A stretch of DNA of 64,000 nt from Pilatotrama ljubarskyi (Eukaryota; Basidiomycota; Agaricomycetes; Polyporales; Polyporaceae). The notes beneath the pieces were generated by a model. That model worked only from the letters and a program-made list of their open reading frames with translations, had not been told where the DNA came from and did no database searches. Positions 171 through 62,228 of this stretch are shown here, piece after piece. The stretch is taken from assembly GCA_022385805.1 (NCBI GenBank), contig MU277759.1:4203-68202 (forward strand), written 5' to 3'. The stretch's first letter is position 1, and every line of letters starts with the position of its first letter. Made by a program: the position numbers and the translations under genes.

Positions 171-228
171 AGGGAGCGCCTTCGGTGCTCCGCAGCCTCG
201 TGTGCGGAGTGGGGTCACATCATCGTCG

Positions 229-5365: not shown

Positions 5366-5415
5366 CCGCCAGAAGGGTACGCTGGCATAGTATCAATTGT
5401 GTCCTCAGCATACAA

Positions 5416-42149: not shown

Positions 42150-42249
42150 CGTGTCAGCGCTCAGCCGCCGCCATTCTGCTCGACTAACCGTCCAGGCACT
42201 CCGTCCCACCCCCCGTCACGGCGCCCCGACCGTCACCGCCCCCACCGAC

Positions 42250-42294
42250 ACTTCCCCGACCAACACTTCCCCGACCAACACTTCCCCGACCCAC
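42250..42294. repeat. 15-bp minisatellite (ACTTCCCCGACCAAC) in the left end of the giant element
   Basis: Three tandem 15-bp units. The surrounding GC-rich, C-biased sequence (42200-42600) encodes a repetitive Pro/Ala/Thr/Arg frame on the plus strand that is not considered a gene. Confidence 0.8.
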
Positions 42295-42520
42295 GCCGCC
42301 CCGACCTGCGCCGCCTCGATCCGCGACGCTTCACTCGATGCCGCCTCGACCAATCCCGCTCTGCACCATGTCGCACCACGCCCCACCTCCGCGCACCACG
42401 CCAGGCCGCACCATACCGCCCCATCCGCCGCCAAACCACGCCGCATCACGACGATTGTCCGAACTGCCTCGCGCCACCCCGCTCCGCGCCAGACTGCGCC
42501 ACCCCGCTCCGCGCCAGTCC

Positions 42521-42620
42521 ACACCAGTCCGTGCCAGTCCGCGCCAGTCCGCGCCAGGCAACACCACGCTACACCGCGCCGCGCTGAGCCATGCGGCATG
42601 GCACAGCGACGTCGGGGAGC
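42521..42620. repeat. Subterminal inverted repeat, left copy, including 10-bp CGCCAGTCCG units
   Basis: Contains several 10-bp units (CGCCAGTCCG and variants) followed by GCGCCAGGCAACACCACG, CTGAGCCATGCGGCATGGC and CGACGTCGGGGAGC. The reverse complement recurs at 61782-61883 with about 90% identity apart from one 11-nt insertion and one missing 10-bp unit. Confidence 0.85.
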
Positions 42621-42688
42621 TCACAAGCGACGACCCCGCCGTATCTAATTTAGCTCTGTATAGCTCGCTGTCAATAATTGACACACGC

Positions 42689-45600
42689 TCAGACGAGTTC
42701 GCCACTTACCCTGTCCAGCAACTTGATGACAATACACTCCTCTCCAATGTCTACTGGAATGTACGTGAATGCGGCGAAGTGGCTGCGGATATCGTTCAGC
42801 GAGAGGATGCAGGGCGTTGACGTGGTACGGTTGTAGAAGAGCCGCGACTGAATGTCCTCGAGGTGTCGGAACAGGTCGACTTCCGCGTGCTCGGGAGAGA
42901 GGGGGACAAGTTCATTGATGACGAAGAACGGTTCAACAATGGCCTTCCCCGCGACCATACGACCGTGGAGGAAGATGTCTTGGATCTGCCCGGCCCGGGG
43001 AAAGTCCTGAGAACGCTCCGATCCGTCACGGAAGAGGATATACGAGTTTGCACGGGAGAATGCCTGTTTGGCGTAGGTGATCCCGAAGTGATCAAACGTT
43101 GAGACATGCTGCGCGCCTAGCGGGAGCCTTGGACGATGGTCCTCCAAACGCGCGAAGGTAGAGGCGAAGAGGGGACCCTCAAGTTCCGTAATTCGTCGGA
43201 GTAATCCGTCGTAGATATCCTGAGGAAGTTCGACGAGCTTTTTCTCATCATATCTTGCAGAGGGACTCAGGACGTCCTCCCCGTCTTGCTCGAGCACCGG
43301 TCGGAAGTCAGCGAGTCGAGTGCCACGCGTAGCGCTTCGGAAGGCATCGTAGTATGCCGTTCTCATAGCGCGGAAAGGTGTCGCATCTGGCCATTCGATT
43401 TCTTCCATCAGTGACCGAAGGTTCGCACCAGCATAGAAGTACTGCATGAACGTAATAGGCATGTCGCCTACATGATGTCCCACGAGTCAGATGTCAGTAC
43501 GCCGGATAGAGACAGGATACGTACTTGACTTGCTATTCGTATTCAGTTGCTGGAGCAAACCGTTGAAACGCTCGAAGGGAAAAGCCCACCACGCGTGGAC
43601 GGGTCCGAAAAGTTCTAAGCATTCCTTCAAGTGCAAAGAGAGGTGATGGTTAGGAACGAGCTCGTGGTCGAACAGTTCCCGCAGCGATTTGAGGTATTCC
43701 ATCATGTGGTAGTCGAACTTGTCTATCCGCTCCTGGTTCGTGGATCGTCTTGCCGCCAGCTCAACAGCCGAGACGAGATGCGCGAAGTTATGCAGCAGCG
43801 CCTTCTGTCGCGGACTGGCGTCTGGACCACCCCAGAGGCAAACGAGCGTGATGACCATGCTGACGGTACAGACGGTACGCCACACATCTGCTTTCAGCTT
43901 TCCGTGAGAGGGGCTGCCGAAGTTGCGTGGAGGGCGTTCTAGCCAAGAAGGAAAGAATGTAGAGTCGATGTCTTCGCGAAGTTTTGTGACCGTGGCTTGA
44001 TCGAGAACGCTGAAGCGTGAGATGTCGTACTCGTCTCGACTGAGATAGAAATCCGTAGTTGCTTCGTCAAGTACCGGGGGTAGACGTATTCCGCCAGGCG
44101 ACGTGGACCACTGCATCTCAGCGCATCAGTACATCCACCGAGGCGTTCGCGAATGGTTCATGAACTTACCCATCGCAGTAGAGCGTCGACGTAGTCCTTC
44201 TTCGCGAAGGTCGATGAAGGCGGGACCGCACCGTTCAATTCCGCCACAGCCGCGAGATATCCTTTGCGCACCTTGGAAAGTCGGCTTTTAGAGCTGGTGC
44301 GAATATAGGAAGCTACTCTCTCCAGCCAAGTCTGTTGTTCCGCGGGAGTGTGGGGGGCGAGCTTCGAGGAATCGGAGGACTTGTCTTTGACGTTAATTCC
44401 CCAGACATCTCGGCAATGATGTCGAAGTTCTCCTAGGAACAGGTTGTGCATAGCGTCGACAAGAGCGAACTTGGTGGGATCCCAGTATGGCAGTCGCAGG
44501 AGTTCCGACCAACGTATGCCGTACTTCTTGAAGAGTCTGTGACGCTCAGCCTCCGTCTCCGCTCTCTTCCACCTCTCCGCGTATTTCAGATGTTGCTCGC
44601 GTGTATAGCGCTTCCAGGAGGGTCGATCCAAATCGTTGATGTGAGATTTGCGCAGCCTACAGAACGAGCAGAAGTGATCGGACAAATGGCCAGCGAAGCC
44701 GCCCGCCTTGCGCAGGGCAGGTAGGTCACAAACGAGGGGGATTACCGCAGCGCGGATGAGGAGGCCAACGGAACCCAGGGCGGTACGCTCGAAGTACACT
44801 CCACGATGCCATAGGATCAAGAGCTCGTCGATGAGGGGTCATAGAAAGTGGTTGAGTTGGTGGAGCTCTGGCTCCTGGGGACCGGAAATGATACCGGCAA
44901 GGTACACGTTCTCGGGGCGGTAGCGCAGATCGGGAGGGAGATTCAGACAAACGAGATATATGACTCCAATGGAATGAGATTTCCCGGCCTTCTTGTTCCC
45001 GAACGGATTGCACCAGTCTATGAAGAGGGAGAACACAAGGTGCAATGAACCATCAGGTTGATGAGAGAACGGTGTCCTTCCATCCGGACCTAGGAATTGT
45101 CGCATGATCGGCGCATCCCAGATGTCCGTCCACCACGTTTTCGCCTTCTCCGCCATGGCTTTCCAGGCATTCCGGGTTGTGCGCACGAAGCCAACCCTGA
45201 GAACCATGTCGACGAGCCAAGACTCTAAGGGGCAATAAGGAAAGGGACGACGAGGCCGGTAGCTGACGCTGGTTGGCTGGGCGGATGACGACGGCAGAGG
45301 ATTATGATGGTAGAGCAGTTTTGCGTTGCAGGGGGCCTTGTCGGTCTCCTGGAATGTGCAACGGCGCGGATAGGGTCGAGTCGCCTTGGGCTGTGGCATG
45401 TATGTGCAACAACACTTGGGGCACGCTGCATAGCGGATGAAGTCCGTGTTGAGCTCGAGCTGGGACATGACCGTACGAATGTCGGCAGGAATGGCATTGA
45501 TGACATCGTGCTGCGCAGGGGTGAGATGCGCGGACGCGTTGCAGTAAACGAAGCAGCCATAGATCATGGCTTGGAGCGACGTGAGCACGAAGCGCACATC

Positions 45601-46693
45601 GGTACGGGAGACGGCGGCGAGTGCGTGGAGGACGGAGGCCATGAACAGCCCTACGAGGAGGAAAGGCTCCATCGTCTTCGTGACTGGAGATGGACGCTCT
45701 GTGAGAGATGAGCAGAGAACCAGAATGACAATGGATTATAGCCTCACGATATTCGGATACTTTGACCCCTGTAGTGTCGTCCGCAGACTCAGGCACCACA
45801 GCTTTCAAAACGAGCTCCTGCCACGCATCGTCTTTCTTCGTCTCTAGGAGTCGCAGATGACTCTCCGCAGTGGCCTTCAGGATCTCGAGGCGGCGGTCCA
45901 GATCCTTGTCCCCGATGCGTTCCAGCTGTTCCAACTGACCGAGAAGGACGTCAAGGGTGCTGACGATGCTGTGGTAGAGGGCGTTGTCATCCTTGTTCCC
46001 GTGCAGAGCCGGAACGGGATCCAGGGGAGCGCTTGGCGCGGTCGCAAAATGCAACTTCATCGTCGCCGGAATCATCTTGCGCTGAGCTGCTAGTGCAGAT
46101 TGGAGTGACGAGAGCTTTGACAGTCGTTCAGCGGCAGCAGCCGTCCGGCTTGACGCGGACATCTGCGAGCGTCATTCAGCTTGTATCTTGCGTAACGAGG
46201 GACCAGCACTCACCTCTGAGTTATGCACACCAGGCTCTTCGGCGTCGTCGAGGGCCGCAGCATCCGTTGACTCGGGAGTGGCAATGTGTATCTCAGACAT
46301 TCTAGCGGAAAGCTGAGAACGCGTCAGGCTCGCGCAGAGTTTGCACAGGCACAAACGTACTTCGGGTGTTTGCTCTCGGCCTTCACCTTGCTCAGAAGGG
46401 CCAGTCGAGGATGGCCAGGCCGCTTCGCCGTCGCGAGTTCGAACAAGCTGTGGTCCTGGCGTCGCTGAGGAGCTCGCCGCGGCCAAGAGGATCCTGCTCG
46501 CTATCTGCCGTTCATTCTCTTCAGTATATTCCTTCGTGCGCAGGACGTCGTTTTCGAGATGATACTGAACCGTCTTCTGACGATCCCATAATCGCCCCGG
46601 ATGTTCGCAGTTGTCCCTGTCGTACCAGACGTACTGTCAACACTTCGAACAGGTACAGAGATGCTTGCCCGGAGGGACGGACATCCCGTTCAT
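42689..46693 (-). pseudogene. Tnp2-type (EnSpm/CACTA) transposase, probably interrupted by an early stop
   Basis: DDE-type transposase of the large fungal Tnp2 family. The first reading block starts at 46693 (MNGMSVPPGKHLCTCSKC) and meets TGA at 46637-46639, directly after the CxCxxC motif. The sequence then continues in frame as QYVWYDRDNCEHPGRLW, as family members do without a stop. Later exons: a helical region (45750-46162), ACPKCCCTYMPQP, WWTDIWDAPIMRQFLGPDG, the catalytic-core block FIDWCNPFGNKKAGKSHSIG and NLPPDLRYRPENVYLAGI (44830-45100), CDLPALRKAGGFAGH with a HFCSFC zinc knuckle (44640-44740), FALVDAMHNLFLGELRHHC (about 44400-44475), GPVHAWWAFPFERFNGLLQQ (43545-43605) and a C-terminal domain to 42689. 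Apart from the early TGA no break was seen. Translation could begin downstream or the stop could be a recent C-to-T change. Confidence 0.8.
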
Positions 46694-47304
46694 CTTCGTT
46701 CAGACCCAGGCTTGAGCCACTGGACAAGCGACGGGCAGTAAGGTTACGGTAGTTTCTCGGGTAGTTGATGAGTGAGAGACAACCGCCGCTGATGATTGAG
46801 ATCAGTAATCAAGAATCGATGAGCATCTCGGATTATTCCTGGACATATCTGATGTATTGTATTGATGCACAGGTACTGATACAATCGTCACCTCACCAGT
46901 CCGGCGCGGCAGCGTCATGCGCACGATGAATGGCTGCTTCCCAGATAGGATGCTTGGTCTCCTGCACGTGGTGTAGGGGTTCCTTGGGAGAGTCGCCGAG
47001 ACCCTGGAGGACGGACACAATCAGGCAAGGGATGAGCCACGGTAAGGCATTCGCGAGTTCGAACACAGCGCGTGCTGAATATAGGACGGGTCCTTGGATC
47101 TATATGTTTCTGGAGTTAAGAGGGGCGACAGCGGGCGAGTAGCAGGAAGGGAATCCCGACACGTACTGTCCTAGCGAATGAGGTGTACCGGCGTTTTCCG
47201 GCTCCATGGGTCACATTCATAATCGCAAGAGGATGCGCCTGTGCACATTCTCAGAGCGACTACACGGCATCGGTACGCAGCACTTACCAGATAATGCGCG
47301 AAGA
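46694..47304. other. Intergenic inside the giant element
   Basis: Region between the transposase 5' end and the coiled-coil gene 3' end; no coding motif recognised. Confidence 0.4.
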
Positions 47305-48533
47305 CTATAGCCATGCAGAAAAGACGACACTCGTGCTGGCATCGCTCGAGACGTCTCTTCGAGGCTGCGGGGCTGCCGCTGTCTCTCTAAATGAGCTGTA
47401 GCGCGGTGCAGCCGGCAGTACTTCGTAGTCCTGGCAATTCCGACCGTTAGCGTCTTCTGCAGCACGAGAAGGGTCGCACTGACCTTGGCATCCCTCACGA
47501 TGGAGGCGTCGGGCGGGGACATAGAGGAACCAGAACTGCGAGATGACGACCGCTTCACGGATACGCTGGCGGACAAGGCAGAGGACGAAGTCTCTGCGGT
47601 ACCACTGGCAGTGAACGGGAACCGGTAGTCCAAGAGAGATTGATCGAGCCTGTCTTGAACGGTCTCTAGCATAGACCTTAGATGAGCGCCATCTTCTTCA
47701 AGCCGGGACAGCCTGTCGTCAGTCTCCCCGGCCCACTGCTTGATGGTAGAAAGGACGTCATCTAGCTCTGCCCGATTCCTAGCGCTACTGTCGAGCTTGC
47801 TCCTGAGAGCCGTCGTATCGGTTTCGATCCGCATCAATCTGCCACGTATTTCTGTCAGGTCATCGAGACATTGAGACTGGGCTTCCTCGAGGGCTTTCGC
47901 TTCCTTCTTGAGTTTCACTACAGAACTCTTAGACATCGTAAGGCTCCTGCAAAGAGTTGGCGTACCCTCTGCTTGGCGGTACGAAAGCCGCACTGGACCG
48001 GTCTTCTGATCACACTCTCGCCGTGTAGAAACAAGCTCATCTTCCAAGCGCGAGATCTGAGTGTTGCAGGAGTTCTGCCGGAAGCGTCAGAGATCAGGAC
48101 ATCACTAAGCGGTGTAAACGCACCATCTGGCGTTTGAGGAGAATAACAGCCTTGTACAGGGCCGCGCTACAAGCATTGAGCTCCTGCAACTCCTGCAGGG
48201 CCTCAGAATAATCTTGTTCGATCTGATCGCCATCTCCTTCCTCGCTAGTTGTGGCATAATTTAGTACATGAGAGGCACGCTCCGCAACAGCGCGACTCAC
48301 TGGATACGCAGAAGCTGACGAACGGTACGTTGGGAGAGACGATAGCGCGGAATGCCTTCCCAGCTCGACCTGGCCAGTGCATCGGGACTCTCGCTTAGTT
48401 CCGCTATCGAGTCTTCTGACCCTGATTGTAGACAGGAAAGGTCATGGCCTACGTCGGAGGTCTCAGAGAGTAGTTCAGACATCGCGGTGGGGCACGTAGA
48501 CCGCAGCATATCACCAGGTTGTACGAGCGACAT
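47305..48533 (-). CDS. Coiled-coil protein, giant-element cargo
   Basis: The ATG at 48533 (MSLVQPGDMLRSTCPTAMS) is the first in frame; an upstream GTG is ignored. Exons give an acidic Ser-rich start, RYRLSQRTVRQLLRIQ, then long heptad-rich helices (QDYSEALQELQELNACSAAL; KLKKEAKALEEAQSQCLDDL; LRSMLETVQDRLDQSLL) and a Ser-rich linker. Removal of a probable intron from 47466-47492 or longer joins this to DYEVLPAAPRYSSF and a stop at 47305-47307. Apart from the coiled coil, about 200 residues, I recognise no family. It is probably a scaffold or dimerising protein; function unknown. It lies on the same strand as the transposase and the two paralogous genes upstream. Confidence 0.6.
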
Positions 48534-48628
48534 GGTGGCTGTAGGAGGAGATGGACGCGCCACTGGCCGTCGGGGGGAAGGGGCTTTGTCGAGTGGTTCA
48601 AAGGCATTGAATTACCCGTTCGGTACAA

Positions 48629-49937
48629 CTAACGAGGATCCTCAGCGGACGTACTATATGGCGCACGAGCACGCACGACTAGGACGATACGACCTATACT
48701 ACATGGGCCTAACGAGGCTACAAGCGTTCTGCGAGGTCGGGATGAGCAAAGAGAGAGCGAGATCCGGACGCGACACTCACTCTGAACACCGCGCCTTGTG
48801 TACCAGTGCTCCCCCACCCAAGAAGGAATCCTTCTCTTCTCGGTGAGTGTGAGTCGTCTGCCGTCTTCACGTCGATATCCGACCTTCACACGCTTCCAGT
48901 GCGCACCCTGGGCCGGATCGACGCACCATATCCACAGTTGCGAATGCTTCCAGTTCTCGGTGTTACGGTAATAGAAGATATCTCCTACTTGAACGTCCTC
49001 TTGTCCCACGAAAGGAGGCGGGCTAGGAATTGGTTGCGTCCCTTCGGTCTCGAAAAAGGGCGTTTTGAGAGCACCATGGGCACCACTCTTGTCGCCTGCT
49101 GGGCGTGTAGTCACTTGGCGGACAAGTATCTGGTCCCACAGTCAGCTGAAGTTCCAGCACCATATAGACCAAACTCACAAGATCAAGAGCGCGTTGACTA
49201 TCAGCACGGGGAACAGGGCGCACTTGTATATCGTCTGTAGACGGCGCACCCTTCTCGGCCGACTTCACGAGGCTCTGGTCCGTTGAGGTAGATTGGGGTG
49301 CATGACCCGTCTGAGGAACAGGGGAGGATTCGCGAGAAGACGATCCCGATATGGCTGGTGAGGACGGGCTGACCTCTTGATTGCCGCACGGGGAGATCAC
49401 CAAAGCGACACGGCGAGTAGGAACAGAAGTGCGGGAAGATGAAGCGAGACTGAAACCTACAGTGCGGTGCGGGAAGCCACTGTGTCCGGCTTCTCGCCGG
49501 ACATCAGAGACGGGTGGAGGATGCGTCGCTTCCGCACGGGGCAGGGACGGCTCAGGAAGCGGCACAGTACTTGTACCAGGCGTCTTGGCCTCCGGCTGGA
49601 CCATTGCATTGGGATTGACAGCGAACGGTGCTCTGCGTGAAGCGAAGTGCATGAATAACATGAACAGCGGGCAATATCCACGGACTCACACGTGTGGTAC
49701 TCGTCCGAACTCACGCAAGATGGTGGGCTTGTACTCAGCGTAACTCTGAGGCAGGGGTACAAATAACTCGAGGTTCGTGGTGCGATGCTGCCTCAAAGTG
49801 GTCGAAGCGGCATATGCGAAGCCCTGTGTAGGACGACCGTCTCTCTTGCGTACTCGAGCGCGGCAACACTGGACCAGGGCCAAAGTCATGAGGCATGAGA
49901 ACGCAACCAAGGCTTCAAGGCATGGAGGATAGAGCAT
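48629..49937 (-). CDS. Membrane-anchored protein with unnamed GYRREDGRRL domain, copy 1
   Basis: The ATG at 49937 starts MLYPPCLEALVAFSCLMTLA, a single N-terminal membrane span followed by basic residues (CRARVRKRDGR), so the body is probably cytosolic. A Ser/Pro/Thr-rich linker follows (49200-49640). The C-terminal exon has DVQVGDIFYYRN, SQLWIWCVD, HWKRVKVGYRREDGRRLTLT and PSWVGEHWYTRR (48790-49010). The same C-terminal block occurs in the neighbouring gene at 50453-51792. Conserved Trp, Tyr and Arg spacing suggests a compact beta-rich domain, but I recognise no named family. The true 3' end may precede 48629 if the final frame includes an intron. Confidence 0.6.
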
Positions 49938-50452
49938 CGTGGATACTGTAGAGAGAGAGAGACATGGTGTGTGTTCACTCCGTGAATGCGAACGTCCGCG
50001 GCCGAGTCTCAGAAGTGGTGAATGTGGATTGTCCCAAAGCCAAAGCGCTTTGCTCTACAGTGCTGTGTGCTGAGCGCTTAGGCGGGATGTGGCGTGGGAC
50101 AATGGTGCTTTAGGCGCTCGATGCTCGTTCGTGCAGCACCGCACCACGCCAGACCACGCCGCGCCACGATGGCTCACTCGCACCCGCACCCTACGCTCCC
50201 CGACCGCCTCCGTCATGTCGCGCCAAACTCGTAGACCTGCGGCTCGCGTGTCTCTCACATTCGAAGATACGACACTGAAATTACTAGAACGTATGTAGCG
50301 TACAACCTCAACTGCAGGGATGGTTTAGAGTCGTAGTAGAGAACAAACGTGGAGAAGACAACAGCTCGGTCCAATGGTCGGTCTGCATCCCATAAGACAT
50401 CGGCCTCGACCGCGGTCAGCGACAGCCCTTGAAGAGGGTTGAGAGCGACGTC
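49938..50452. other. Intergenic inside the giant element, with degenerate subterminal-like sequence
   Basis: At about 50130-50215 the sequence (CGCACCACGCCAGACCACG..CGCCACGATGGC..CTCCCCGACCGCC) has the same C-rich CACGCC/CCAGNCC style as the element ends and could be a degenerate internal copy. No gene seen. Confidence 0.35.
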
Positions 50453-51792
50453 CTAAGGCTTCGCCAGGAATTCTGTAGTGGTTACACATATTGTGAGTGA
50501 AGCGTGCGTTCGTTGGATGAGGTATGTCTTACACTTCCTCGCTGCCCGCCGCTCGATATCCGTCTTCTTCTCCTTCCTGGCAATTCTGCGGTAATATTCC
50601 TCAGTCACCCATGAAGGGTCCTTCCTGGTGGCGGTGAGGATCAGCCGACGGCCGTCCTCGCGCCGATACCCCGGAGCGACTGCACGCCAGTGCAGCTCGC
50701 CGTTTGAGTCAGGGATCCAGAGCCACAGCTGGTACGCAGGAGGATCAGTCGCGGTGGCTGCGTGACAGAAGACGTCGCCAACGGTCAAGTTCTGGCACGC
50801 CGAGGGATCCGGAGGATTGTCGAAGAGGGCAGCCTCTTCGGAGGAGAACCAGGAAGTCACCACTGACGTAGCGATCAGTACAGCCCCGCGGGCGCAACTG
50901 TGCATATCCACTTACTGCCCTGGATCGTCTTCGTGCGACGCTGATACTGGACATCTTCCTGCGCAAGGTGAGCGATCCATCAGTAGTCATACAAGGTATC
51001 CATGCGTGACTCACATCCATGGGCTCCTCCTCATACCTCGTAGTAGCTGCAGATAAGGCCGTACGCGGGGAGGACCCCGGACTCGTGGGTTCCGGAGTTG
51101 CGGGAGGTGTGGTCAAGGAAGATGTCGAAGAGAGGGTACGTGAAATGTGATTGCGGTGTGCAGGGGCGTCCCCAGCAGTCCCACCGGTGCGTCCCACTTT
51201 CAGCGCCTGCGATATGGAGGAGAGACTCCGATCCAGATCGATGCGTGCAGAGGCAGGCCCAGCGATGATCGATGTGTTGGAGCGATGCAACATCTCAGGC
51301 CCAACAACCCCTCCATCGGGCCTTGCAGCTGGACGGGGCGTCGTGGACCGTGAGGAGGATGGGGTGTCCAAGGTCTCAGCTGGCGATGGACGAGGCCTTG
51401 CCGTGCTGGCCGAGGACGCCGAGCCTTGGATGAGCGCGTTCGCCGTCTGAGGCGCATCCTCAAATCTACCGCAATCGCTCAGACTACACACTGTGAAAGG
51501 GAGATGAGTGAACACACCTGCCAGTAGAAGCCGAGCCCTGCAGAGGCATCCTTGATCGGCCGCCGACACTCTGCTGCCGCTGGACGCCATCGACAACCTG
51601 CGGAGCCGCTGGCAAAAGGACGAGTCGTTCTCCGTCGGACCCAGAAACATGGCGCACAGCATGTTCCGGGCTATCGAGTAGCCGCTCGCGGAGGAAGAGT
51701 TTGACATAGAGCCCCGATACCAGTGCTAACGACAGCAAGGCGACGAAGGAGGGGAAGTCGAGCGTGATGGTGAACATATTGCGAGAGTCCAT
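50453..51792 (-). CDS. Membrane-anchored protein with unnamed GYRREDGRRL domain, copy 2
   Basis: The ATG at 51792 starts MDSRNMFTITLDFPSFVALL, giving one N-terminal membrane span. A Ser/Thr/Pro-rich linker with many potential phosphosites follows (51020-51440; HISRTLSSTSSLTTPPATPE). The C-terminal domain reads LTVGDVFCHA, YQLWLWIPD, HWRAVAPGYRREDGRRLILT and PSWVTEEYYRRIARKEKK (50540-50790), then a basic tail and a stop at 50453. It is paralogous to 48629-49937, tandem on the same strand. The linker is much more diverged than the domain, pointing to selection on the domain. Function unknown; probably attached to the ER or nuclear membrane. Confidence 0.62.
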
Positions 51793-52392
51793 ACCGTGGA
51801 TGCGAGCGGATGCCCCTTGGATGCGGGGATCCCCAGTCGCCTGCAAATTTATGTGGTGAGCAATCCCTTTTTGAGTCTGCGAGACATGTAGAATAGCAAA
51901 GACTTAAACATGGCATATACAATGGCCTTTGTCACTCTCGGCCTGACTGGAGATCTGCGCATGCACGTTATCGACCACGGCGGCTCTCAACAGTGAGCCT
52001 GTCACTTACATGTCGGCCTCGAGCGCAGAGCTATACGCCAAGTGCTTGTTGTCAACGCCGGATCTTGCACTGCGCGAGCATGTAGCTACTTAGAGTTGAC
52101 GGCGGCGGTGCACGATGCACGAACGCGTGCGCGGGAGGGAACAAATGCATTGCAGTACAACGAGCAATGGGCATTCAGACATCTATGCAAAGAAGGTACA
52201 TCAACGAGTAACCATCAGGAGGAAAGTACGTTGCGCAAGAGCAAAGCGGCACAGGACAGCACGAGAACATCTACGAAGGGAGTGGGTCGCTCAAAGCATG
52301 TTGTTCTGCATGGTATAACAATGAGATCAGAGCTGATCTTGAGACACGGCGACGGTAATTTCCGCTTACTGTACATCCGCTTTGCAGAGCAC
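51793..52392. other. Intergenic inside the giant element; nothing recognised
   Basis: Short frames only, no motif. Confidence 0.4.
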
Positions 52393-53776
52393 TCAATCAA
52401 AGGGCGCATACGGCATTACCTCCTGCCTGCGCGTCGGGGTGAGAAGTGGTGCCAGCTGCCGTTCGAGGTCTTTGCTGTAGTCGTAATAGTACCCCCAGAC
52501 GAGGCGGAAGACCTCTACGAGGACGGTGAGCGTCTGCACCTGCTCCCCCTTGCGATTGAGTTCGGCCTGCACCGTCGCGAGCTTGTGCTCAAGGCCCGCA
52601 AGATCTGTATGCATCGATGAGCGAGGTGGTTCTGCGGGCGGACAGCATCGCCCTCATCGCGAGTGCTTACAGTCAACCTCCACTTCGATGGTCCTTGCAC
52701 TGCCGGCTCGCATACCACTCTCCATTGCTACCAGGGAGGGACGCTCTCGCACGAGGACTTCGGGACGAGGGGAGCAGATAGGCGAACAGATGGAGGTAGA
52801 GATAGCGAGGCGGCGGGACCATAGGGAAGTCATAGCGTTCTTATGTAAATGCCACAGCACATGGGAGAGCTCGTGCAACGCGCCTGCTCAGATGACACAA
52901 CCTCGCAAGTCCTCGTGTATTATGATGCACGCTACCAGAAGGAGACTAATACCGAACCGGACAAGAATGAAGCCCTCCTCCCCTCATCTACGCAGCATCC
53001 TCGACAGCGACCTCACCCTTGCTAGGAGCGTCGCCCTCGGCTTCTCCCTCTACGAGGGTCTCGTGAGACGGAGATCATGATTTGAACGGCGGTAACTCAC
53101 CAATGTCTTCTTGTGCGTCTTCGAAATCGTCTGCGTCCCCAGTACTCGCTTCGTCGGGATCCTTGCATACGGTGGGAAAGGTGATGAGCACCTTGCGCAT
53201 GCACTCCGCGAGTTCCTCGCGGTGGACCTCGGCCTGACACTTGCCCTCCGTGACGGCGTGGAGGCAATCCCAGAAGTGGCGAGCGCACGTGAAGCGGATG
53301 TGATGCTGCCAGCCCGGCTGGGTACTGTCGATGAAGGTCAGGGTGCGGTTGACCTACGGGTATCTGTCTGCATATAGGGCCGACGCCAGAAACAGCATGC
53401 GACGTACCTCGTTGGAGTTTACGTGAAGATCAGGGTGCAGGAGGAACGAGAACATCGGGCGAGGGTTGCGCTCGCAGACATTGACGCCATTTTCAGTCGC
53501 AACGACACGGCTGGCAATGACCCCATCTGATACATTGTCCTGTTAGTTGATGCGCAGACTATGGATCGCGGAACTTATGGATCTGCGGTGCGAGCTCGGC
53601 TACCGCGAGGCGGATAGCCATCCAAGGGAGACTCTCCGAATGAGGTCCGTATGCGCAAGGGTCAGAAGCCCAGAAGGCGTCGCCGTTAGCGAAGGAAATC
53701 AGAGGATCACTGAAATATAGCATTAGCGAAGGGTGCAGGAGCTGAGTCCAGAAGACACGTACGAGAAGACGCTCAT
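52393..53776 (-). CDS. Uncharacterised conserved protein, giant-element cargo
   Basis: A 14-nt first exon (53763-53776, ATGAGCGTCTTCTC) spliced to TGATCCTCTG gives MSVFSDPLISFANGDAFWAS, then PWMAIRLAVAELAPQIHK, GVIASRVVATENGVNVCE, MFSFLLHPDLHVNSNE, TLTFIDSTQPGWQHHIRFTC, ARHFWDCLHAVTEGKCQAEV, an acidic stretch, ALHELSHVLWHLHKNAMTSL and a C-terminal helix pair (DLAGLEHKLATVQAELNRKG; VFRLVWGYYYDYSKDLERQL) ending at 52393. No domain name is recognised. HELSH resembles a HExxH zinc motif, but no metalloprotease context is visible. It is divergent from the plus-strand gene at 54255, with 478 bp between the starts. Confidence 0.6.
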
Positions 53777-54254
53777 GCTGACCGCGAAGAAATTATACGA
53801 TGGACGGAGTGCCACTGGATGTCCTGCGCAGAACCTCGTACAGCGATCGCGGGCCTATATAGGATTTGGCTACCCACAAGACAAAGGGCTTGGATCAGCC
53901 TCATGCTCTGGACAAGTTGACTTACCGCTCAGGTGTTTGTGCGGAAGCAGCAAGGTCATGACCTCAAAACTCGAAAGACACCGCTGCAACATAAGCCAAC
54001 CTGCGTCGCTACTTTGCTTGAGACCATTGTGACCTCACCGAATGACCAAATGACCAAAGCTCTCGAGTTCAGAACACTACGGTTCAGCAGCATCACAGTA
54101 CTGCGCCGTGGTTCTTCACGATTTCGGAGCTAGACCTAGTAGATAATCAGGCTTTGTATGCAGAGCGGACTGATAAGTCACCCGTGACCCCACAGCCCGC
54201 TCATCGTCACCAGTCCGGTACAGCTTCCTCCGCCACCGTAATCGCCACAAGACT

Positions 54255-55051
54255 ATGTCGAGCAGCATGCAATTTCCAGGGTGCGTCTTCATCGTGACTG
54301 TGATGACGTACCGGGCGCGGTGACCGACGCCTACCACCGAAGACTTTACCTCGGCGTCGTCGATGTGATCGTCTGGGGCAAGCAGTCCGACGACATGTAC
54401 ATACAGCACCGGGCCGATGTGTCGTTGCTACAGGACGGAGCACGCAACTGTAAGCACAGATTTGTGAAGCGATAGATATAACCCAACTTCGAGCTTTAGA
54501 TCTGGTGTTCTCCAATGACCTCAATGCAGACACTATCGCCGCCGCGGATGTGGCCGTCCTGCTAACTGCTTGGGAACTGCAGAGGCTTGTGAGTGCGATA
54601 TTTCCAAATCAATGAAGACTATACCCTCACCTTCGCATACGCCGCAGTCTCCACGCTCGCTCGCATACCGAGCTGCTCACGCAGGGATCCTGTTGATCTT
54701 CGAGGATACAAAAACTATGAACGCCTTCTTGAGCGTGGTCACCCAGCCGGGCAGGGTGACGGCGTCTCCCAGCGGCAAGGCGGGCTCGGGGTCGCGTACG
54801 GTTGGCCTTGCGATCTCAAACTGTCGCGAGACCTTACCTCTGCTGCTCTGGGAGGCTTCATGGGATACGACTCGGAGCCCTCCCCCACCCTAGCGGGCTA
54901 TGACTCGGACGACGACTTACTGACTGACTTGCTTGAAATAGACACGGACGCGGGGGATATGGAGGACATAGAGTTAGAGAGTACAGACGAGGACGTTGAG
55001 GAACTGACATCTGCGCCCTTAGATTATGTCTGGTTTCGCATTGACGTATGA
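54255..55051 (+). CDS. Uncharacterised acidic protein, giant-element cargo
   Basis: The ATG at 54255 (MSSSMQFPG) is joined over a probable intron (about 54281-54340) to LYLGVVDVIVWGKQSDDMYI. Later exons give ALDLVFSNDLNADTIAAADV with LLTAWELQRL, then YTLTFAYAAVSTLA, and a final exon with YGWPCDLKLSRDLTS and a strongly acidic tail (GYDSDDDLLTDLLEIDTDAG; ELESTDEDVEELTS). Stop at 55049-55051, only 15 bp from the stop of the converging WD40 gene. I recognise it only as a type of conserved agaricomycete protein with an acidic C-terminus; no function is known. The intron near 54596-54625 is uncertain. Confidence 0.5.
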
Positions 55052-55066
55052 CATACCGTAAAATGG

Positions 55067-56591
55067 TCATGTAATCGTGCTTTTGCCATCCTCGTTCGAG
55101 ATTTGTAGGCCATAGAGGACAGCGCAGAGCATAACGGTGACAGCCAGACAGATGTACAGCTTAGGAACAGCATCAGGTGCTGGTATGTTGTTGCGCAGAG
55201 AACTCATAGTGTACCGTCATATATGATCCCGTTCGGTCCACCAGCTTGCTGGAACGATCGTTCTCGCCTAGTTCGCTCTGTGACAAGGGGGAGGAGGATT
55301 CCTTGCATCACTCACGTGCAACCCACAGGACGATGAAAGAGTTGTCGCCATTGCTGACGCCACCAGCAAGGATGAATCGGTCGTAAGAGCGGCTGTAGTG
55401 CGCCTGTGGGCAAGAGCAGATTAAAATTAGAGCGCACGGAAGTTGGCGAGGATCACTACGTACAGCAATTGCAAGAACTTGATCATTCTCTGTGGGCCCG
55501 GCACCATGTCTGACGAGACATTATCTCGGTAATTGCACTTCACTCACTATCAAGGTGCAAAGTTTGATGGACGCGGCGACTCTGCACATGCCAGAGGTGG
55601 ACCTGCCCAACAGTGCTGCCTCCCAGCATTGCATGGCCCTCGTGAACGAACAGCACGGGTACAGGGCGCAGTCTACTCGAATCGTTGTTGCATCCTCCAA
55701 TACATGCCGTGGTCTCCAGGTCGTAGATGTCGAAACCTCTGGCAACGTTAGACACGGCACATAGCCTGCCATCAGCAGAGACACTGGAGCTTGCCCTGGA
55801 TAGCGATGTTAGTCCCGGAGAGTAAAGGAGCGCACCCAATCTCACACCATCCCCGGGGTCGGTATCGTGTGCACTCTGCTCCAATCCGCCGTGTTGAATA
55901 TTCTTCATTGGGCTGTCAGTGCGCAATCAAAGAGGCAGCATGAGTCACCTACATGATGCCATGGAACATGTACGACACGAGGAGCAGGGAAGAATGTCTC
56001 CGAGACTTTGTCCAGTGGATGCCGGTAACTAGCACCTCGCAACCCTTGTTTTGAGAACTGCGAGGAGGCATCGGAAGTTTGACTACGCGATGGAAGTCAC
56101 CTGCAAAGACATCGGGCTGTCTTTCAAACGTCCAGAACAATATATGCTTACCGGCGCGAACCTCCTTCCAAATTACGACCGTTACCTGGGCGCCGGAGGC
56201 TAACCATGGCCCGTTCAGAGCCAGGCACTCCACCGGACGATCGTGGGCACGAAATCCAGCAACACTGAAGGCCTATATGAAATATGATTCAGACATTCAG
56301 TACACATGAGGGCTGACGTACCGGCGCAAGCTCCAGACGGTCTATGTAGCCACCTTGAGAGCCGCATAACAGCCTGTCCTCCCGTTCTTGGTTCCACGCC
56401 AGAGACAGAAATGGGCTGCTACCCCTGTATGTCTGGATGAGTTTGCGGTCTGCGACTCGCCATATGTAGACAGTGCGATCGAAGGTCCCCCCCGCCGCAA
56501 TGAAGGTTCCCTGAGCACTGAAGGCGACGGCTGACACCCCCCCCTTCAATCCTCGTTTCAGGCGAGCATATTCCTCGTATCGTAGGACCAT
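55067..56591 (-). CDS. WD40-repeat protein with C-terminal membrane anchor, giant-element cargo
   Basis: The ATG at 56591 (MVLRYEEYARLKRGLKGG) places the first repeat at once: GVSAVAFSAQGTFIAAGG with RTVYIWRVADRKLIQTYRG. Next comes SLAWNQEREDRLLCGSQGG. Later blades are VECLALNGPWLASGAQVTVV, VSADGRLCAVSNVARGFDIY, HAMLGGSTVGQVHLWHVQ and DRFILAGGVSNGDNSFIVLW. The last exon gives PKLYICLAVTVMLCAVLYGL, a single membrane span, and ends EDGKSTIT (stop 55067-55069). A tail-anchored beta-propeller would face the cytosol on the ER or nuclear envelope. An upstream in-frame Met at 56747 would add 52 low-complexity residues and is less likely. Partners unknown. Confidence 0.78.
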
Positions 56592-56975
56592 TTGTTGCGC
56601 ATATGCGTTGGAGAATGCAGCAGTCGAACGGAAGCAGGCAGGAAGCGCAACGCGTATAGGACTCTGAAGACTCGATGCAGAGTCGAGGGCAAGAGGTACG
56701 CCACTGCGCGCACGTGGGCGCCGTGCGGCGGGGATCCCGCTGCGCATAAGCGCCCGGTACAGTGCACTTTGTCTTTGCTTCGCCTCTCTACTTCCACGGC
56801 TGCCTGGTGCTCGCGTCTCGTCTCAAGGCTGCAGCACATACTACTCGTTCCCATTCCACCCCCAAGTCACCACTGCATATACTCATGGCTAGCCGGCTCA
56901 CTGGTCGCTTTTCAGACTGTTTTGACTACGAAGACAACGTCGGATCGACGAGTGAGCACCCAGGCCAGCAGTCCC
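56592..56975. promoter_or_regulatory. Divergent intergenic region of WD40 and SUN-domain genes
   Basis: Lies between the WD40 start (56591, minus) and the SUN-domain start (56976, plus), so it holds both promoters. An open frame spans it on the plus strand but is low-complexity. A short exon from an ATG near 56885 (MASRLTGRFSDC) could belong to the SUN gene. Confidence 0.4.
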
Positions 56976-57962
56976 ATGCCACTACTACATAACTCAGGAA
57001 GGAGCGTACGATTCCGTCCGGAAGTGAAGTGGAGCACTCCCGACGACCTCAATGAACCTGATGATGCCGCACGTCACCGTCCGCCGACGCCGCCACTGCC
57101 CTCCGAGTCGGTTCGCTCTATCAGACGGTCTAACTCGAGGATATCTCTCGTCCACATGGCTCTCTGCATCGTCACCGGGTTCCTAGTGCTGTTTTTGGGT
57201 ACCCTGGCACATGGATACTTCGACGATCCTGGCAGCAGTACCCGGAGTCCCACCCTTCTCGCCGCCTCCAGGCAAGTCCTTGATTCCTCCTCGTCCCCGC
57301 CCATCCCTATCACGTTACAAGCCTACGTTGATCGTGTCATATCTGCCAAGCTGAGGGACCCCGTCGGGCGCAGAGACTTTGCTCTGCACGCTGACGGGGG
57401 ACGGGTCATGGAGGATCTGACATTTCCTCTGCCAATCCACACGTCGAAGCAACCTCCCGTCTCGCCCCTGCAAAACCCCGAGCGCGCATTACAAGACGAT
57501 ATTCATATCGGAAATTGTTGGCACATCCCTAGTCGAACCGGCCAGCTCGGAATCATTCTCCCCGTCCACGTCTATCCCACCCACGTTACAATAGACCACA
57601 TCCCGATCGAAATTGCTGCGGACATCGGCAGAGCCCCGAGGAACATGCTGCTGTGGGGTGTCGTCGATGGCGAGCTCAATCGTGCTCGCTATCTGAACTT
57701 CACGTCTTTCGAACAGTTGGTCCCTTCCGCTATGGGTCGTCGCGCCCCTCCTGTCATGGGTAACAATACATACATCCTCCTGTCTTCTCTTGAGTACGAC
57801 ATATACGCGTCTTCTCACATCCAGACATTTCAGATCGACCCGCGGCTCATCTACTCTCGTATGTATTTTGGCATTGTAGTCCTCGAGATCGTTGATAACT
57901 GGGGTAGTACTACAACCTGCTTGTACAGAGTACGCATTCATGGCGACGTTGCCGATATCTGA
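56976..57962 (+). CDS. SUN-domain protein, giant-element cargo
   Basis: Single-exon frame of 328 residues from ATG 56976 (MPLLHNSGRSVRFRPEVKWS). A basic, Pro-rich N-terminus precedes one membrane span (MALCIVTGFLVLFLGTLAHG) and a stalk. The C-terminal SUN fold follows: IGNCWHIPSRTGQLGIILPV, THVTIDHIPIEIAADIGRAP, NMLLWGVVDG, YDIYASSHIQTFQI and a terminal IVVLEIVDNWGSTTTCLYRV. SUN proteins sit in the inner nuclear membrane with this domain in the perinuclear lumen. The order span-stalk-domain agrees, although here the coiled-coil stalk is short. It is an unusual passenger for a transposon. The frame stays open far upstream (to 56592), so a longer N-terminus cannot be excluded. Confidence 0.78.
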   Translation: MPLLHNSGRSVRFRPEVKWSTPDDLNEPDDAARHRPPTPPLPSESVRSIRRSNSRISLVHMALCIVTGFLVLFLGTLAHGYFDDPGSSTRSPTLLAASRQVLDSSSSPPIPITLQAYVDRVISAKLRDPVGRRDFALHADGGRVMEDLTFPLPIHTSKQPPVSPLQNPERALQDDIHIGNCWHIPSRTGQLGIILPVHVYPTHVTIDHIPIEIAADIGRAPRNMLLWGVVDGELNRARYLNFTSFEQLVPSAMGRRAPPVMGNNTYILLSSLEYDIYASSHIQTFQIDPRLIYSRMYFGIVVLEIVDNWGSTTTCLYRVRIHGDVADI

Positions 57963-58250
57963 CACCCTCCTCTCCGCGACGCAAGCTGCCCTCTCAATCG
58001 GAATTGTGACAGTCCGTGAATGCTGCAGCGTTATTCGCCTAGTCATTCATGGCTCGGCGTTGGCCTTTGACTACCCTCGCAGCTTCGGGTCGACAAACCA
58101 AGACAAAGCGGCATCTCACAAAGAAGATCTCTGACAGCATGACGATATAAGCAGAAGACCCGCATCATTTTCACCCAGCTGAGAGCATACACATACTTTG
58201 CACACGCGAAGTCCCAACTCGCCACCCACTCCCACTTTCGTACCGCAGTC
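57963..58250. other. Short intergenic between SUN gene and the long cargo gene
   Basis: No feature recognised; the promoter of the gene starting at 58251 must lie here. Confidence 0.4.
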
Positions 58251-61200
58251 ATGTCTGAGCCACTCCCCCTGAACACCTTCGCGGATCTCAATGCTACAGG
58301 CGCGCCTGTAGCAGCACCGTCGAGTAAGTAGGAAGGAATCCGCACGGTCGCATGGATCTGACGCCCTTGCAGATTCTTCGTCCCACAACGTTCAGGCGTT
58401 CGTGCCTGGCCGGAAGAGACGCATGCAGGACGCTGCTGCGCACGAATACGCAAATATCAAGGTGAACAAGGTTCACGAGTTGGTAAGTTGTCTTACGGAC
58501 AATATCCTCCCCCATACGCACCTATAGGGTTTACTGCCATCCAATCGTAGGATTATCCGCTTCCCATCATGTTGCCATCGAGTATCGCGGAAGACATACG
58601 ATTGGAGGTTGGTCGCTCACAACAATGTGGTCGCTATCACTTACATTGTCCACAGCGCCGTGCTCATCGAGAGAAATTCAAGAGGCAGAAGTCCAGTGCA
58701 CCGGGCATCCCAGATCCCGTCCCGTGGGCTGCGTTCAGAGCGAATGCAATACAGCAACCCGAAAATGCGCGTCCACAAGCTGCACGCATGGAAGCTCCCG
58801 ACGACCCCGGGCAGCACGTCCCCGTACACCCAGGCCTTCAATCTGCCTCACAGCACAGTATCGTCCCACGCAGCGCCGACACCAGCACCAGCGCTCCCAT
58901 TGCTCGCAGACCTGTAGCAGCAGGTACCGCCGCTGCAGATGTCGCCCTTGCATCGGCCCCGGTGCAGGCTCCCGCTACTGGCCGCAGTGTATCCGCACGA
59001 TCCGTCGGCTTTGACGCTCCGCAGATAGAGCAGAGCGGCTTCCAGACTATCCGCGCGCACTACCCACAAGAAGGATCATCGATGCGGCCTACTACTATAC
59101 CTCTGCCCGATGGGAGCAGCATACAAGGCCCCGTCCGTGACGTTGCGCCTCCCTCAACTTCGCTGGCATCCCAAGGACCCGTTATCGCTGCCGAAGCTCC
59201 GTCGACTTCCATCCCCTCCGGGCTAGGCCCAGGCATGGTGGATGCGTCGGCTTCCTTGCCTGCTAGCGAGTCTCTATTCGAGACGGCTCGTACCGGTGCA
59301 GTCCTCCCGACGTCAGCCAGCGTCTATACGGCAGATGCCTCGGTGAGCTCTGGTGGGGCCAACCTCCCTGACAGTACGAGTTCAAGTGCAATGCCTGTCT
59401 ATGGCGCATCTGCGCGATTCGGACCTGAGGGCGCTTTGGCCGGTACCGCGGGCGCCGAGGCCCAGCGAACGGACACGGATACGCTGTCCCCCGGGATTGT
59501 TCGGACCATACAGCAGCTTTGGTCGCGCCAACACGGTAGTACACTAGTGAGTATCCTTCGCGCTATCCTTGTGGACTCACAGTCTCAGACCGTGATGTAC
59601 AGACGGATCAGGACGCGAAGCAGGTGTGTACGGCCCTGAACGAAGCTCAGAAGGACTACATCGTCGGATTGTACACGAGCTCGATGCGGGCCGTCGAGCT
59701 GCAACGCCAAGCGTCCGACGATGCCTTCAGCAGATTGCCTACGCAATATGTCAGGTTGCAGGATGGACAACGCCGTGCAGCAATCCCGCCCACGCTCAGC
59801 AGAAACCCGACACTCCAGTCCGTAGAAGAGGGACCGACCGCGTACCCTGCAAGGAAAAGTACTCATGCTTCTTCTCAATCGTTCGCCTCTTCTGTGACGC
59901 CCACTCAAGGCGATGCGGGAGCCGTAAGCGTGACCCAACCGATGTTCATACAGGGCTCATCGGTGTGTTCATGGCAAGTCCGATCCATCCTGGCTTGATT
60001 GACGAGATAATATAGGCTGCAAGTCACCCGCAAGCCACCCCTCTGGCACCCCAATCCTCCATGACGTCGTTTTCTATGTCGGAGGCCTCTTCAGGAGCGC
60101 ATCCGGATAAGGGCAAGGTAGTAGTGCATAGCCATACTGAGGTGTATACCGTAACTTACGAAGTCGCTCATTCTACAGGGCCGCGCGTCAGCACGCCAGG
60201 AGTCGTTCACTTCTGTCACGTCCGATAGCTCTGCCACAGAGAGGGGTGGACCTGCTGCCGATGCTGGTCAGTCGATGCCCCGCCAGCAACAGATGAGGCG
60301 TCTCCCTGCTTGCCCTGCAGCGCCACTCACAATTTCTGAAAGGCACCTCTCGGAGACGAATCAGCACACTTCAACCGGCAGATCGGTGCGCTCATGCTTC
60401 GCAAACTGGACGGCATGTGCAAGATGTTTGAAGAACAGACATCGGCACTCAAGGCGATGATGGAATGTAACCAGCGCTTCCAGTAAGTGGAATGTGCGCG
60501 CGTCGCGGCTACGATTTGACAAGGCCGGTATAGGGAGGGAGTCATGGCCACCCTGAAGAGCGTGCCGGGCACTGCGTTTGCAAGCCACTCCGCTGGATCG
60601 TCGGCAGGCGAGCCGTCAGCGACTTCGGGACGTCAGAAAGCGACCCCTACTAGGGCGTCCGATCGTATTGTGCAGCAAAAGATTGCAAAGGTTCGAGGTC
60701 AACCGGAGAACTTGAACGCTGAAGATGAGGAGAAGCTCCATCGCACACGGTTGCAGGTGCGTCTCCATGTGTTCCGTCTACTCCCCTCATCATCGGTACT
60801 CAAGCTCGACGCGTAGGCCCGTGTCCATAACCATCTCAATACTTTGTTGCACCTCTCGGACACCTCACTCCTCCCCGCCCAATTCCCTCCTCTGACCGAA
60901 GAGGAAGTTTCGGCCTTCCTCGCGGGCAGCCTCAAATGCACGCCTGAGGACTATCGCGTTGACTTTGTGCGGAAGTGGAAGCGGTTCTCTTTTAACAGGG
61001 CTGCAAGGGACGTGGCGATCACCTCGTTCCTACGCAGAGTTGAGGGAGGGGCCTTCCTGACCAACCCTACTCCTGCGTACCTCCTGACGCGGGAGATTAT
61101 TGGTGGGATAATTGACGTTTACATGAAGCGCTTGCGACGTCTCTACAAGGAAGCCCTCAGTCCGCCGAGTGAGGAAAGGAAGAATGAGATCAAGTGTCGC

Positions 61201-61745
61201 GCCTGCCAAGTCTCCCGCATGCATACAGTGAGTACTCTACCAGCTACTCAGGGCAGCTTAATATTCATGCATTACTTTAGTCCTACCGTGATCGGCGCTT
61301 CGTCATCATCTACCTGGGCCAGGCACGGCACAAAGCTCTGTTCGAGCGAATGTCAGCTGCGAACATGAGCGAAGACGAGACTGACGGGGACACGGTTGAA
61401 CACCCTCCTGTCTATCGCATCATCATTGCCGAGTGGCAGAGCGAGGAGCTGAGGCTGTTCCTGTGGACGCTGGACACACTGTATCGCGCATACTGGAAGA
61501 AGCCCCCCGGTAGCAGGCGCAAAGCCAGAAATCCCCCAAGGACACGTCTTCTGCGCGCCGGGTGTAAGACCGTGCCGGGTGTTGCGCCCGCAGGTCTTTG
61601 GAAGAATTGCTATAACCCAGCTTGGCTGAGCAAGCTGGCGCCCTGGGAGCGGGAGGCATTGGATATACAGGAGGGTAATTATGACTTCTCTCTGACGGGC
61701 ATCACCGCTCCCCTGGTATCGATTGATCCTCAGGACCGGGCTTGA
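58251..61745 (+). CDS. Long Ser/Ala/Pro-rich protein with conserved C-terminal domain, giant-element cargo
   Basis: The ATG at 58251 (MSEPLPLNTFADLNATGAP) is followed by a basic exon (FVPGRKRRMQDAAAHEYANI), then a long low-complexity region (58569-59540), a helix (NEAQKDYIVGLYTSSMRAVE), more disorder, and a coiled coil (RQIGALMLRKLDGMCKMFEE) near 60375-60483. The conserved part (60820-61745) has LLHLSDTSLLPAQFPPLTEE, VRKWKRFSFNRAARDVAITS, RFVIIYLGQARHKALFERM, LFLWTLDTLYRAYW, PGLW-like VAPAGLWKNCYNPAWLSKL and a stop at 61745. This C-terminal organisation recurs in agaricomycete hypothetical proteins, but I know no function. It may be two genes (58251 to about 60000 and 60300-61745). The coiled coil and open splice joins favour one. 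Confidence 0.55.
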
Positions 61746-61781
61746 CTCTACGCACCGCGCCTCCCCCGCAACTCTGAGCAC

Positions 61782-61883
61782 GCTCCCCGACGTCGCTGAG
61801 GGTGCGCTGTGCCATGCCGCATGGCTCGGTGCGGCGCGGTGTAGCGCGGTGTTGCCTGGCGTGGACTGGCACGGACTGGTGCG
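61782..61883. repeat. Subterminal inverted repeat of the giant element, right copy (truncated by LTR insertion)
   Basis: Reads GCTCCCCGACGTCGCTG, an 11-nt insertion, TGCCATGCCGCATGGCTC, GCGGCGCGGTGTAGCG and two GGACTGG units. It is the reverse complement of 42521-42620. It ends abruptly at GTGCG (61879-61883), where the LTR begins. Confidence 0.85.
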
Positions 61884-62211
61884 TGTAATGGCGCTGCCGT
61901 TACACGAGCCTCAAGACTCGTTCCGGCGCCTGTGAAGACCCAACTAGTTTAGTGTTTGTATTTGTTTGTAGTTCGATGGACCTCCCGCCTCGACCAACGT
62001 ACGGTAGACTCCGCGCCACTAGAATGTAGCTGGAGCTCGTCACTTATACGCTGGCCCTCGCCGTCCTGTACCCTCGTCGAACCAACGCCGTTTCTTCACG
62101 CACCTGGCTCCTCGCTTGCCTCGCTTCGCTCAGCCCGCCCGAACTCGGCTTCCGTCGTAACGCGCTCGCTCTCTCGTGCTCGTCTCGTCTCGCTCTCGAC
62201 GCGTGCCGTTA
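61884..62211 (+). mobile_element. 5' LTR (328 bp) of a gypsy-like retrotransposon
   Basis: Starts TGTAATGGCGCTGCCGTTACA and ends GCCGTTACA (TG..CA, with a matching head hairpin). It is followed directly by the internal region with Gag and protease frames. The 5-bp flank is GTGCG. It is related to the solo LTR at 28041-28259 through the head sequence and the CGAACCAACGCC word. The 3' LTR lies beyond the window. Confidence 0.8.
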
Positions 62212-62214
62212 CAG

Positions 62215-62228
62215 TTTGGTTCGACCAC
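62215..62228 (+). other. Possible primer binding site
   Basis: TGGTTCGACCACCA starts three bases after the LTR with the TGG expected to pair with a tRNA CCA end. It also lies within a small hairpin (TTTGGT..ACCAAA), so self-priming is an alternative. Confidence 0.3.

Follow-up and report, generated by a model that had tools for sequence, protein, structure and literature searches.

Genes and ends of the element

The analysed stretch of the genome of the wood-decaying polypore Pilatotrama ljubarskyi (Polyporales), hereafter the window, comprises 64,000 nucleotides (C90:4203-68202; C1, C90, C125 and the like are shorthand for contigs of the searched genome, which counts 33.1 Mb in 173 contigs) and carries a Tnp2 transposase gene together with a set of companion genes (Table 1). 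These belong to a large element, named A, which we consider, with a probability of roughly 0.9, to be a giant EnSpm/CACTA (Tnp2) DNA transposon with a recurring multi-gene module. Element A extends from window position 41484 to C90:74110 (window-equivalent 69908), 5.9 kb past the window edge, and has an assembled span of 28,425 bp including a nested retrotransposon, or about 21 kb as reckoned without it. The initial annotation had described a unit far above ordinary size at 42150..61883; the unit is confirmed and is larger than described, both of these limits being internal to the element.

Table 1. Features of element A and its immediate surroundings in the window.
Feature	Position (window)	Strand	Remarks
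Target-site duplication TAC, left copy	41481..41483		Left flank ends TAC; right TAC at C90:74111-74113, and again past a 660-bp MITE
Left terminal arm	41484..42608	+	Outer terminal inverted repeat 41484-41821 (CACGGCAGGCATGCC...) and inner subterminal repeat 42534-42608
Tnp2-class DDE transposase	42689..46636	-	Several exons; PF02992, DUF4218; in-frame TGA at 44839-44841
Coiled-coil gene	47217..48441	-	Weak coiled-coil matches under Pfam cut-offs; exon limits approximate; same place matches in the C1 element
GYRR1	48629..50054	-	N-terminal hydrophobic segment (49.7-50.05 kb) and domain with GYRREDGRRL
GYRR2 (BV20DRAFT_1039371)	50416..51792	-	N-terminal hydrophobic segment and GYRREDGRRL domain
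Middle gene	52393..53723	-	Gene model, no Pfam match; weak C1 matches
WD40 gene	55070..56591	-	PF00400, 42.2 bits; possible C-terminal hydrophobic exon 55070-55216
SUN gene	57156..57962	+	N-terminal hydrophobic (transmembrane-like) segment and SUN domain; PF07738 (Sad1_UNC), 65.2 bits
Long gene	60394..61745	+	3' part firm, model of 395 aa; further 5' exons possible from 58.5 kb
Right inner subterminal repeat	61805..61883	-	Cut into by the LTR retrotransposon; outer 338 bp of the right arm outside the window, C90:73773-74110
Nested LTR retrotransposon, foreign to the element	61884..64000	+	5' LTR 61884-62213 (TGTAAT...GTTACA); gag-like ORF 62420-63580, CCHC knuckle read by eye; continues past the window

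The transposase, WD40 and SUN genes named in the initial annotation were all recovered by their Pfam families. For the transposase, PF02992 (Transposase_21) scored 62.2 bits (cut-off 28.6) at C90:48756-49244 when one TGA was read through; it stayed below the cut-off on single exons (21.4 bits) and on the spliced model (17.6 bits), which holds a false intron around this TGA, while DUF4218 reached 27.0 and 24 bits against a cut-off of 27. Seven companion genes are supported (coiled coil, GYRR1, GYRR2, middle, WD40, SUN and long). An eighth, also counted initially, is not clear, as the 58.5-59.6 kb stretch may either extend the long gene by further 5' exons or be a gene of its own. The GYRR2 model is 96% identical to the annotated protein P0004 across 96% of its length. 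The SUN protein matches the SUN1/SUN2 structures of the PDB (best 1.1e-15) and has the architecture of SUN proteins, a transmembrane-like segment followed by the SUN domain, the segment being read from a hydropathy peak of 2.49 rather than from a dedicated predictor. No Pfam family scored above its cut-off for the GYRR, middle and long proteins. Among the 20 open reading frames (ORFs; a subset of those present) and four gene models scanned with Pfam, neither a TET/JBP domain nor a tyrosine recombinase domain was found; in place of the latter, the element has its Tnp2 gene.

The element is delimited by an outer terminal inverted repeat (TIR) of 338 bp, with positions 41484-41821 recurring in inverted orientation at C90:73773-74110 (337 of 338 bases identical, the window being aligned to neighbouring contig sequence). 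Both ends read CACGGCAGGCATGCC..., giving the termini CACGGC...GCCGTG, and the right-hand repeat beyond the long terminal repeat (LTR) retrotransposon thus continues into a terminus matching the left one, as the initial annotation had required of a true element. The inverted subterminal repeats which it had reported are likewise real (42534-42608 and 61805-61879; 75 nt, 93% complementary). When the left inner repeat was used as a genome query it returned three places (itself, the right copy and C28), and the C125 copy surfaced with a different query. The left arm aligns to ends on C125, C28 and C154, and the homology of the C125 and C28 copies also stops at 41484.

On the right, a run of N at C90:68372-73772 hides much of the remaining retrotransposon, and the junction carries a miniature inverted-repeat transposable element (MITE) of 660 bp (C90:74114-74773). 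This MITE landed on the junction between element and flank, because the 9-bp duplication GCCGTGTAC is present on both of its sides. The junction reads GCCGTG followed by TAC, then the MITE, then again GCCGTG, TAC and CACATTTA. Read past the MITE, GCCGTGTAC is directly followed by CACATTTA, which is in keeping with a TAC target duplication; the duplication of 2-4 bp that had been sought at the true terminus is one of 3 bp. A query made of the joined flanks of A found no continuous empty-site copy in the genome, the right half of this query being the repeated MITE and not the true right flank, and no host gene was recognised by eye across the joined flanks. The MITE has long inverted repeats of its own, with related matches on C7, C25, C26 and other contigs.

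Further copies, relatives and linkage of the module

The outer arm occurs at six places in the genome, namely the two ends of A and one end each on C125, C28, C154 and C103, which correspond to two further copies, B (C125, C173 and C154) and C (C28 and C103). C125:49-10619 aligns with window 41484-51937 at 85% identity; C173, which shares an identical overlap of 284 bases with C125, aligns with the remaining window 51693-61864 at about 85%. Over the 20.1 kb of the joined copy B (C125 and C173) the alignment with A is collinear throughout, with 17,347 of 20,095 aligned bases identical (86%). C28 holds the left end of copy C and is identical to C125 at 5776 of 5780 bases, which is the assembled part of C. 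The left flanks end in AGA on C125 and in GGA on C28, and, in matching orientation, AGA adjoins the end on C154 and GGA that on C103; the two left ends would accordingly pair with two presumed right ends, C125 with C154 by AGA and C28 with C103 by GGA. The flanks differ among A, B and C. Copy B is located slightly upstream of a gene in the C125 flank beyond position 10619, whose start, judged by eye from the flank, we take to resemble methionine aminopeptidase 2.

More distant relatives carry the same genes, with matched protein stretches that are mostly about 40-75% identical. The C1 element is 31,255 bp long and is bounded by 1.9-kb TIRs that agree at 1924 of 1928 aligned bases, with 5 gap columns; they display the terminal motif CACGGCAGGCA, as in A, and are flanked by a TGA target-site duplication (TSD). 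The module of this element follows the order of A across 27 kb, although with weak matches for the coiled-coil and middle genes. The C109 element of 18,713 bp has repeats of 964 bp (963 identical) and CACGAG termini, and holds the transposase, WD40, GYRR, SUN and long genes, of which WD40 and GYRR are turned round; its left flank reads N. The gene arrangement of C109 is found again on C56, together with an inner inverted repeat of 181 bp (90.6%), and termini were not found within the stretch examined. That the genes between the repeats move together, as initially proposed, is borne out by the collinearity of B over 20.1 kb at another locus, by 3-bp TSDs at four insertions and by the same order in the 31.3-kb relative on C1.

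These relatives bear on the view of the element as a Starship-like cargo carrier, in which the companions would be genes taken up from the host, to its advantage or cost, and would vary from one element to the next. Such a carrier would agree with the large size, the many genes with one transposase per unit, the occurrence of SUN and WD40 folds in hosts as well, and the roughly 6 to 7 kb of additional DNA in C1. Against this stand the recurrence of the set in divergent elements with its order kept or rearranged, the few GYRR, WD40-type and long matches outside the clusters (in searches that give lower bounds), and a transposase of the Tnp2 type in place of a tyrosine recombinase, so that we regard a cargo carrier as very improbable. 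The extra DNA of C1 lies at C1:790700-797000, includes a second match to the C-terminal part of the long protein (794294-794704), and is perhaps a nested related element.

The association of the module genes was also examined genome-wide, linkage being defined as the presence of another module within 25 kb; this neighbourhood covers at most 5.6% of the genome, the modules themselves included, and the searches give lower bounds. All 13 GYRR matches were linked, as were 10 of 11 matches to the long protein. The 15 WD40 matches fall into nine loci, all of them linked, and the 27 SUN matches into 14 loci, 10 of them linked. One long match and four SUN loci, at C60:37725, C72:63482, C73:44218, C21:160074 and C21:280376, stand alone with no other module within 25 kb, and may be either genes of the host or isolated remnants. 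In a tree of eight transposases (8 of the 29 Tnp2 matches: the eight best loci, minus the near-duplicate C28, plus C56), the module-bearing C1, C109, C125 and C56 were separated from four module-less sequences with a support of 100/100.

Copies at several loci would also be expected of a resident host gene cluster that stood beside an ordinary small Tnp2 element and was spread by segmental duplication, and the Tnp2 matches that have no module nearby (21 of 29) would suit it too. This explanation was rejected on the termini and target duplications and is extremely improbable: the homology ends at matching TIRs with 3-bp target duplications, and the terminal arms are 99.4-99.9% identical within elements (those of B being paired across contigs).

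Related genes are present outside P. ljubarskyi. Relatives of the long protein were found in Trametes sanguinea (67% identity over 79% of the query), in one further case (63% over 70%) and in Lenzites betulinus (40% over 29%), while the search with the GYRR2 protein gave two proteins among the matches listed, both from P. ljubarskyi. A profile of nine element SUN proteins retrieved at least 299 relatives at E <=1e-5, of which 120 were listed; by locus-tag prefix, these include at least seven from one T. sanguinea assembly and at least six from one Lentinus tigrinus assembly. The named SUN relatives among those listed are, where recognised, presumably all polypores. In a tree of 73 SUN proteins (68 species-named ones of the 120 listed and five from this genome; 26 of 70 inner branches weak), the P. 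ljubarskyi element proteins fall in several lineages, mostly adjoining genes of other species, with C6 unplaced; the tree was rooted on C21a, a presumed host SUN gene, whose separation is set by this rooting. Judged from these sequences, related SUN genes are multicopy in other polypores. Carriage by elements may explain why SUN genes are so numerous and scattered in the Polyporales, a pattern which a gene-family study could take for host expansion.

Selection on the module and its putative role

The transposase and the companion genes are under purifying selection, with ratios of nonsynonymous to synonymous substitution (Ka/Ks) between A and B of 0.10-0.19 in the seven genes tested: 0.10 for long, 0.11 for the GYRR1 domain, 0.12 for the transposase (three 3' exons), 0.16 for the middle gene (two exons), 0.18 for SUN, and 0.19 for both WD40 and GYRR2 (Fisher p <=4e-6 in all seven tests). 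These values lean low, the exon models having been scored in favour of synonymous change. Copy B has no stop in six of the seven tested genes and one in the GYRR1 stretch, and the C125 stretch that holds the GYRR1 domain is open. Outside this seven-gene test, the coiled-coil ORFs gave Ka/Ks values of 0.32 and 0.41. Unspliced coding-strand ORFs ranged from 0.06 to 0.45, among the ratios below 0.45 reported; on their own these do not prove coding, because antisense frames over the same exons were equally low.

With such ends, target-site duplications and repeated insertions of the same selected genes, the Tnp2 DDE transposase would act on the long terminal arms (the CACGGC... ends with the subterminal repeat), and the whole unit would move by cut and paste with duplication of 3 bp of the target. 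Cut and paste by the transposase is the mode of movement of the EnSpm/CACTA family. The SUN, WD40, two GYRR, coiled-coil, middle and long genes would travel along as a recurring, selected module.

Several observations weigh against the reading of these elements as giant transposons with a module of their own. Copy B was joined from contigs, the interior of C is unassembled, and the ends of B and C were paired by their target duplications alone; all the copies compared lie in one genome assembly. Only 8 of the 29 Tnp2 matches have a module within 25 kb; of the 21 others, six are below the family cut-off, and another, on C28, belongs to the truncated end of copy C. In copy A itself, the in-frame TGA at 44839-44841 interrupts the catalytic region of the transposase, the matched frames on C125 and C28 being without stop, and A may now depend on the transposase of other copies for its transposition because its own frame is interrupted. 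Stops also occur in the matched stretches of some relatives (one in GYRR of C1, one in WD40 of C98 and three in long of C56), where they may represent introns or decay. As to the proteins, the predicted fold of the GYRR domain had a mean predicted local distance difference test score (pLDDT) of 60.6, and no PDB structure matched it at E <=0.001, the model of the long protein was poor (mean pLDDT 35.9), and the hydropathy scan put 25 frames of the element above the threshold.

For the companion proteins, the hydropathy peaks were 2.49 for SUN, 2.17 for both GYRR2 and the WD40 region, and 1.92 for GYRR1, and the hydrophobic segments of SUN, GYRR1 and GYRR2 have counterparts in C1, none being noted for WD40. 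The membrane segments are suggestive only, because many of the 25 frames listed by the scan are non-coding. The SUN protein would reside within the nuclear envelope and, together with the GYRR and WD40 proteins, could form a membrane-anchored complex serving the element rather than the host; this complex might hold the transposase or the element DNA at the nuclear periphery, or help the element to be maintained or to spread among dikaryotic nuclei. In its most specific form, this role would be that of a transposon-owned bridge of the nuclear envelope resembling the linker of nucleoskeleton and cytoskeleton (LINC), in which SUN, with GYRR and WD40 as membrane-anchored partners, tethers the element to the nuclear periphery and helps it to spread from one nucleus of the dikaryotic pair to the other or skews its transmission at meiosis; it would also account for the many SUN genes of polypores. 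We consider this specific form unlikely; if true, it would make a nuclear-envelope bridge part of the accessory machinery of a transposon, of a kind not known before. The finding in any case raises a testable question, namely why nuclear-membrane proteins are carried on a transposon.

The companions might instead counter silencing by the host, like the TET/JBP genes of other fungal elements, with membrane features that are incidental; this explanation competes with the proposed role only and leaves the transposon reading as it is. It has a precedent in other fungal EnSpm and Plavaka elements, whose TET/JBP dioxygenases are believed to act against silencing (PMC12730594). The lack of a TET/JBP domain in the scanned ORFs and models speaks against it, as does the SUN domain with its hydrophobic segment, which points to the nuclear membrane, and we see an anti-silencing function as a tentative proposition, on the whole rather doubtful.

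Elsewhere on the contig, three inverted similar stretches of 65-70% identity are found, two to the left of the element (window 13011-14834 and 16131-17925) and one to its right (C90:76142-77704), the visible frames of which we assume to encode an M20-type peptidase. Short tandem repeats with GCGAAG-rich units occur near the left end of the window (26-172 and 5261-5368).

Comparison with known transposon systems

The assignment to EnSpm/CACTA is based on three characters: a Tnp2-type (Transposase_21) DDE transposase; CAC...GTG termini within inverted repeats, reading CACGGC in A, B, C and C1 and CACGAG in C109; and 3-bp TSDs at four insertions (TAC, AGA, GGA and TGA), where for B and C the TSD itself served to pair ends located on different contigs. 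Termini of 5'-CAC..GTG-3' and a TSD of 3 bp are given for fungal EnSpm, and a catalytic DDE with C(2)C and H(3-4)H motifs is described for EnSpm/CACTA, in the same account (Kojima 2025, PMC12730594). The polypore elements share with fungal EnSpm/CACTA, including the TET-carrying EnSpm elements, the termini, the 3-bp TSD, a transposase of the CACTA group and an extra gene aboard; for their part, they measure 19-31 kb, have TIRs of up to 1.9 kb and about seven companions including SUN and WD40, and lack TET/JBP in the scanned ORFs (PMC12730594).

Enlarged EnSpm families of 16-20 kb with 4-5 ORFs are mentioned for the red alga Chondrus crispus (as cited in PMC6431247). The likeness, drawn from size and ORF number, is that of an oversized EnSpm with several ORFs, but the alga belongs to another lineage of life, and the polypore elements reach up to 31 kb with about eight genes. 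With the KDZ (Kyakuja, Dileera and Zisupton) and Plavaka groups they have in common that they are DNA transposons of basidiomycetes with passenger genes. However, Zisupton and Dileera have 8-bp TSDs, and Plavaka has TGT or CATCA termini with TSDs of 2-3 bp (PMC12730594), in contrast to the CAC termini and 3-bp TSDs observed here. Plavaka was rejected on its termini, as these are CACGGC..GCCGTG in the polypore elements and not TGT..ACA or CATCA..TGATG. Among the best-ranked results of searches of the open-access literature, and in term searches within PMC10799480, PMC5689174, PMC9674265 and PMC3411680, no Tnp2 element carrying SUN or WD40 genes was found described, a scope that leaves subscription papers, Repbase and bioRxiv outside.

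The polypore elements resemble the Starships as giant fungal DNA elements with many genes. Starships are characterised by a tyrosine recombinase captain and variable cargo. The polypore elements differ from them by their Tnp2 transposase, their TIRs and their recurring gene set; cargo does not vary between A and B, which are collinear, and C1 has the same set and order, plus its extra DNA. Starship membership was rejected on the collinearity of A and B, the set and order kept in C1 and the presence of the Tnp2 transposase. The initial annotation had envisaged a system distinct from the Starships, which holds for the transposase and for a gene set that is recurring and not variable, with the amendment that, by termini and TSD, the system belongs to EnSpm/CACTA. 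Starships have been reported in the basidiomycete Tremella fuciformis (PMC13066641). Giant fungal elements have so far been studied mainly as such tyrosine-recombinase Starships, and the polypore elements indicate that, in fungi, a Tnp2 cut-and-paste transposon can likewise be a multi-gene unit of 19-31 kb with long TIRs and selected companions.

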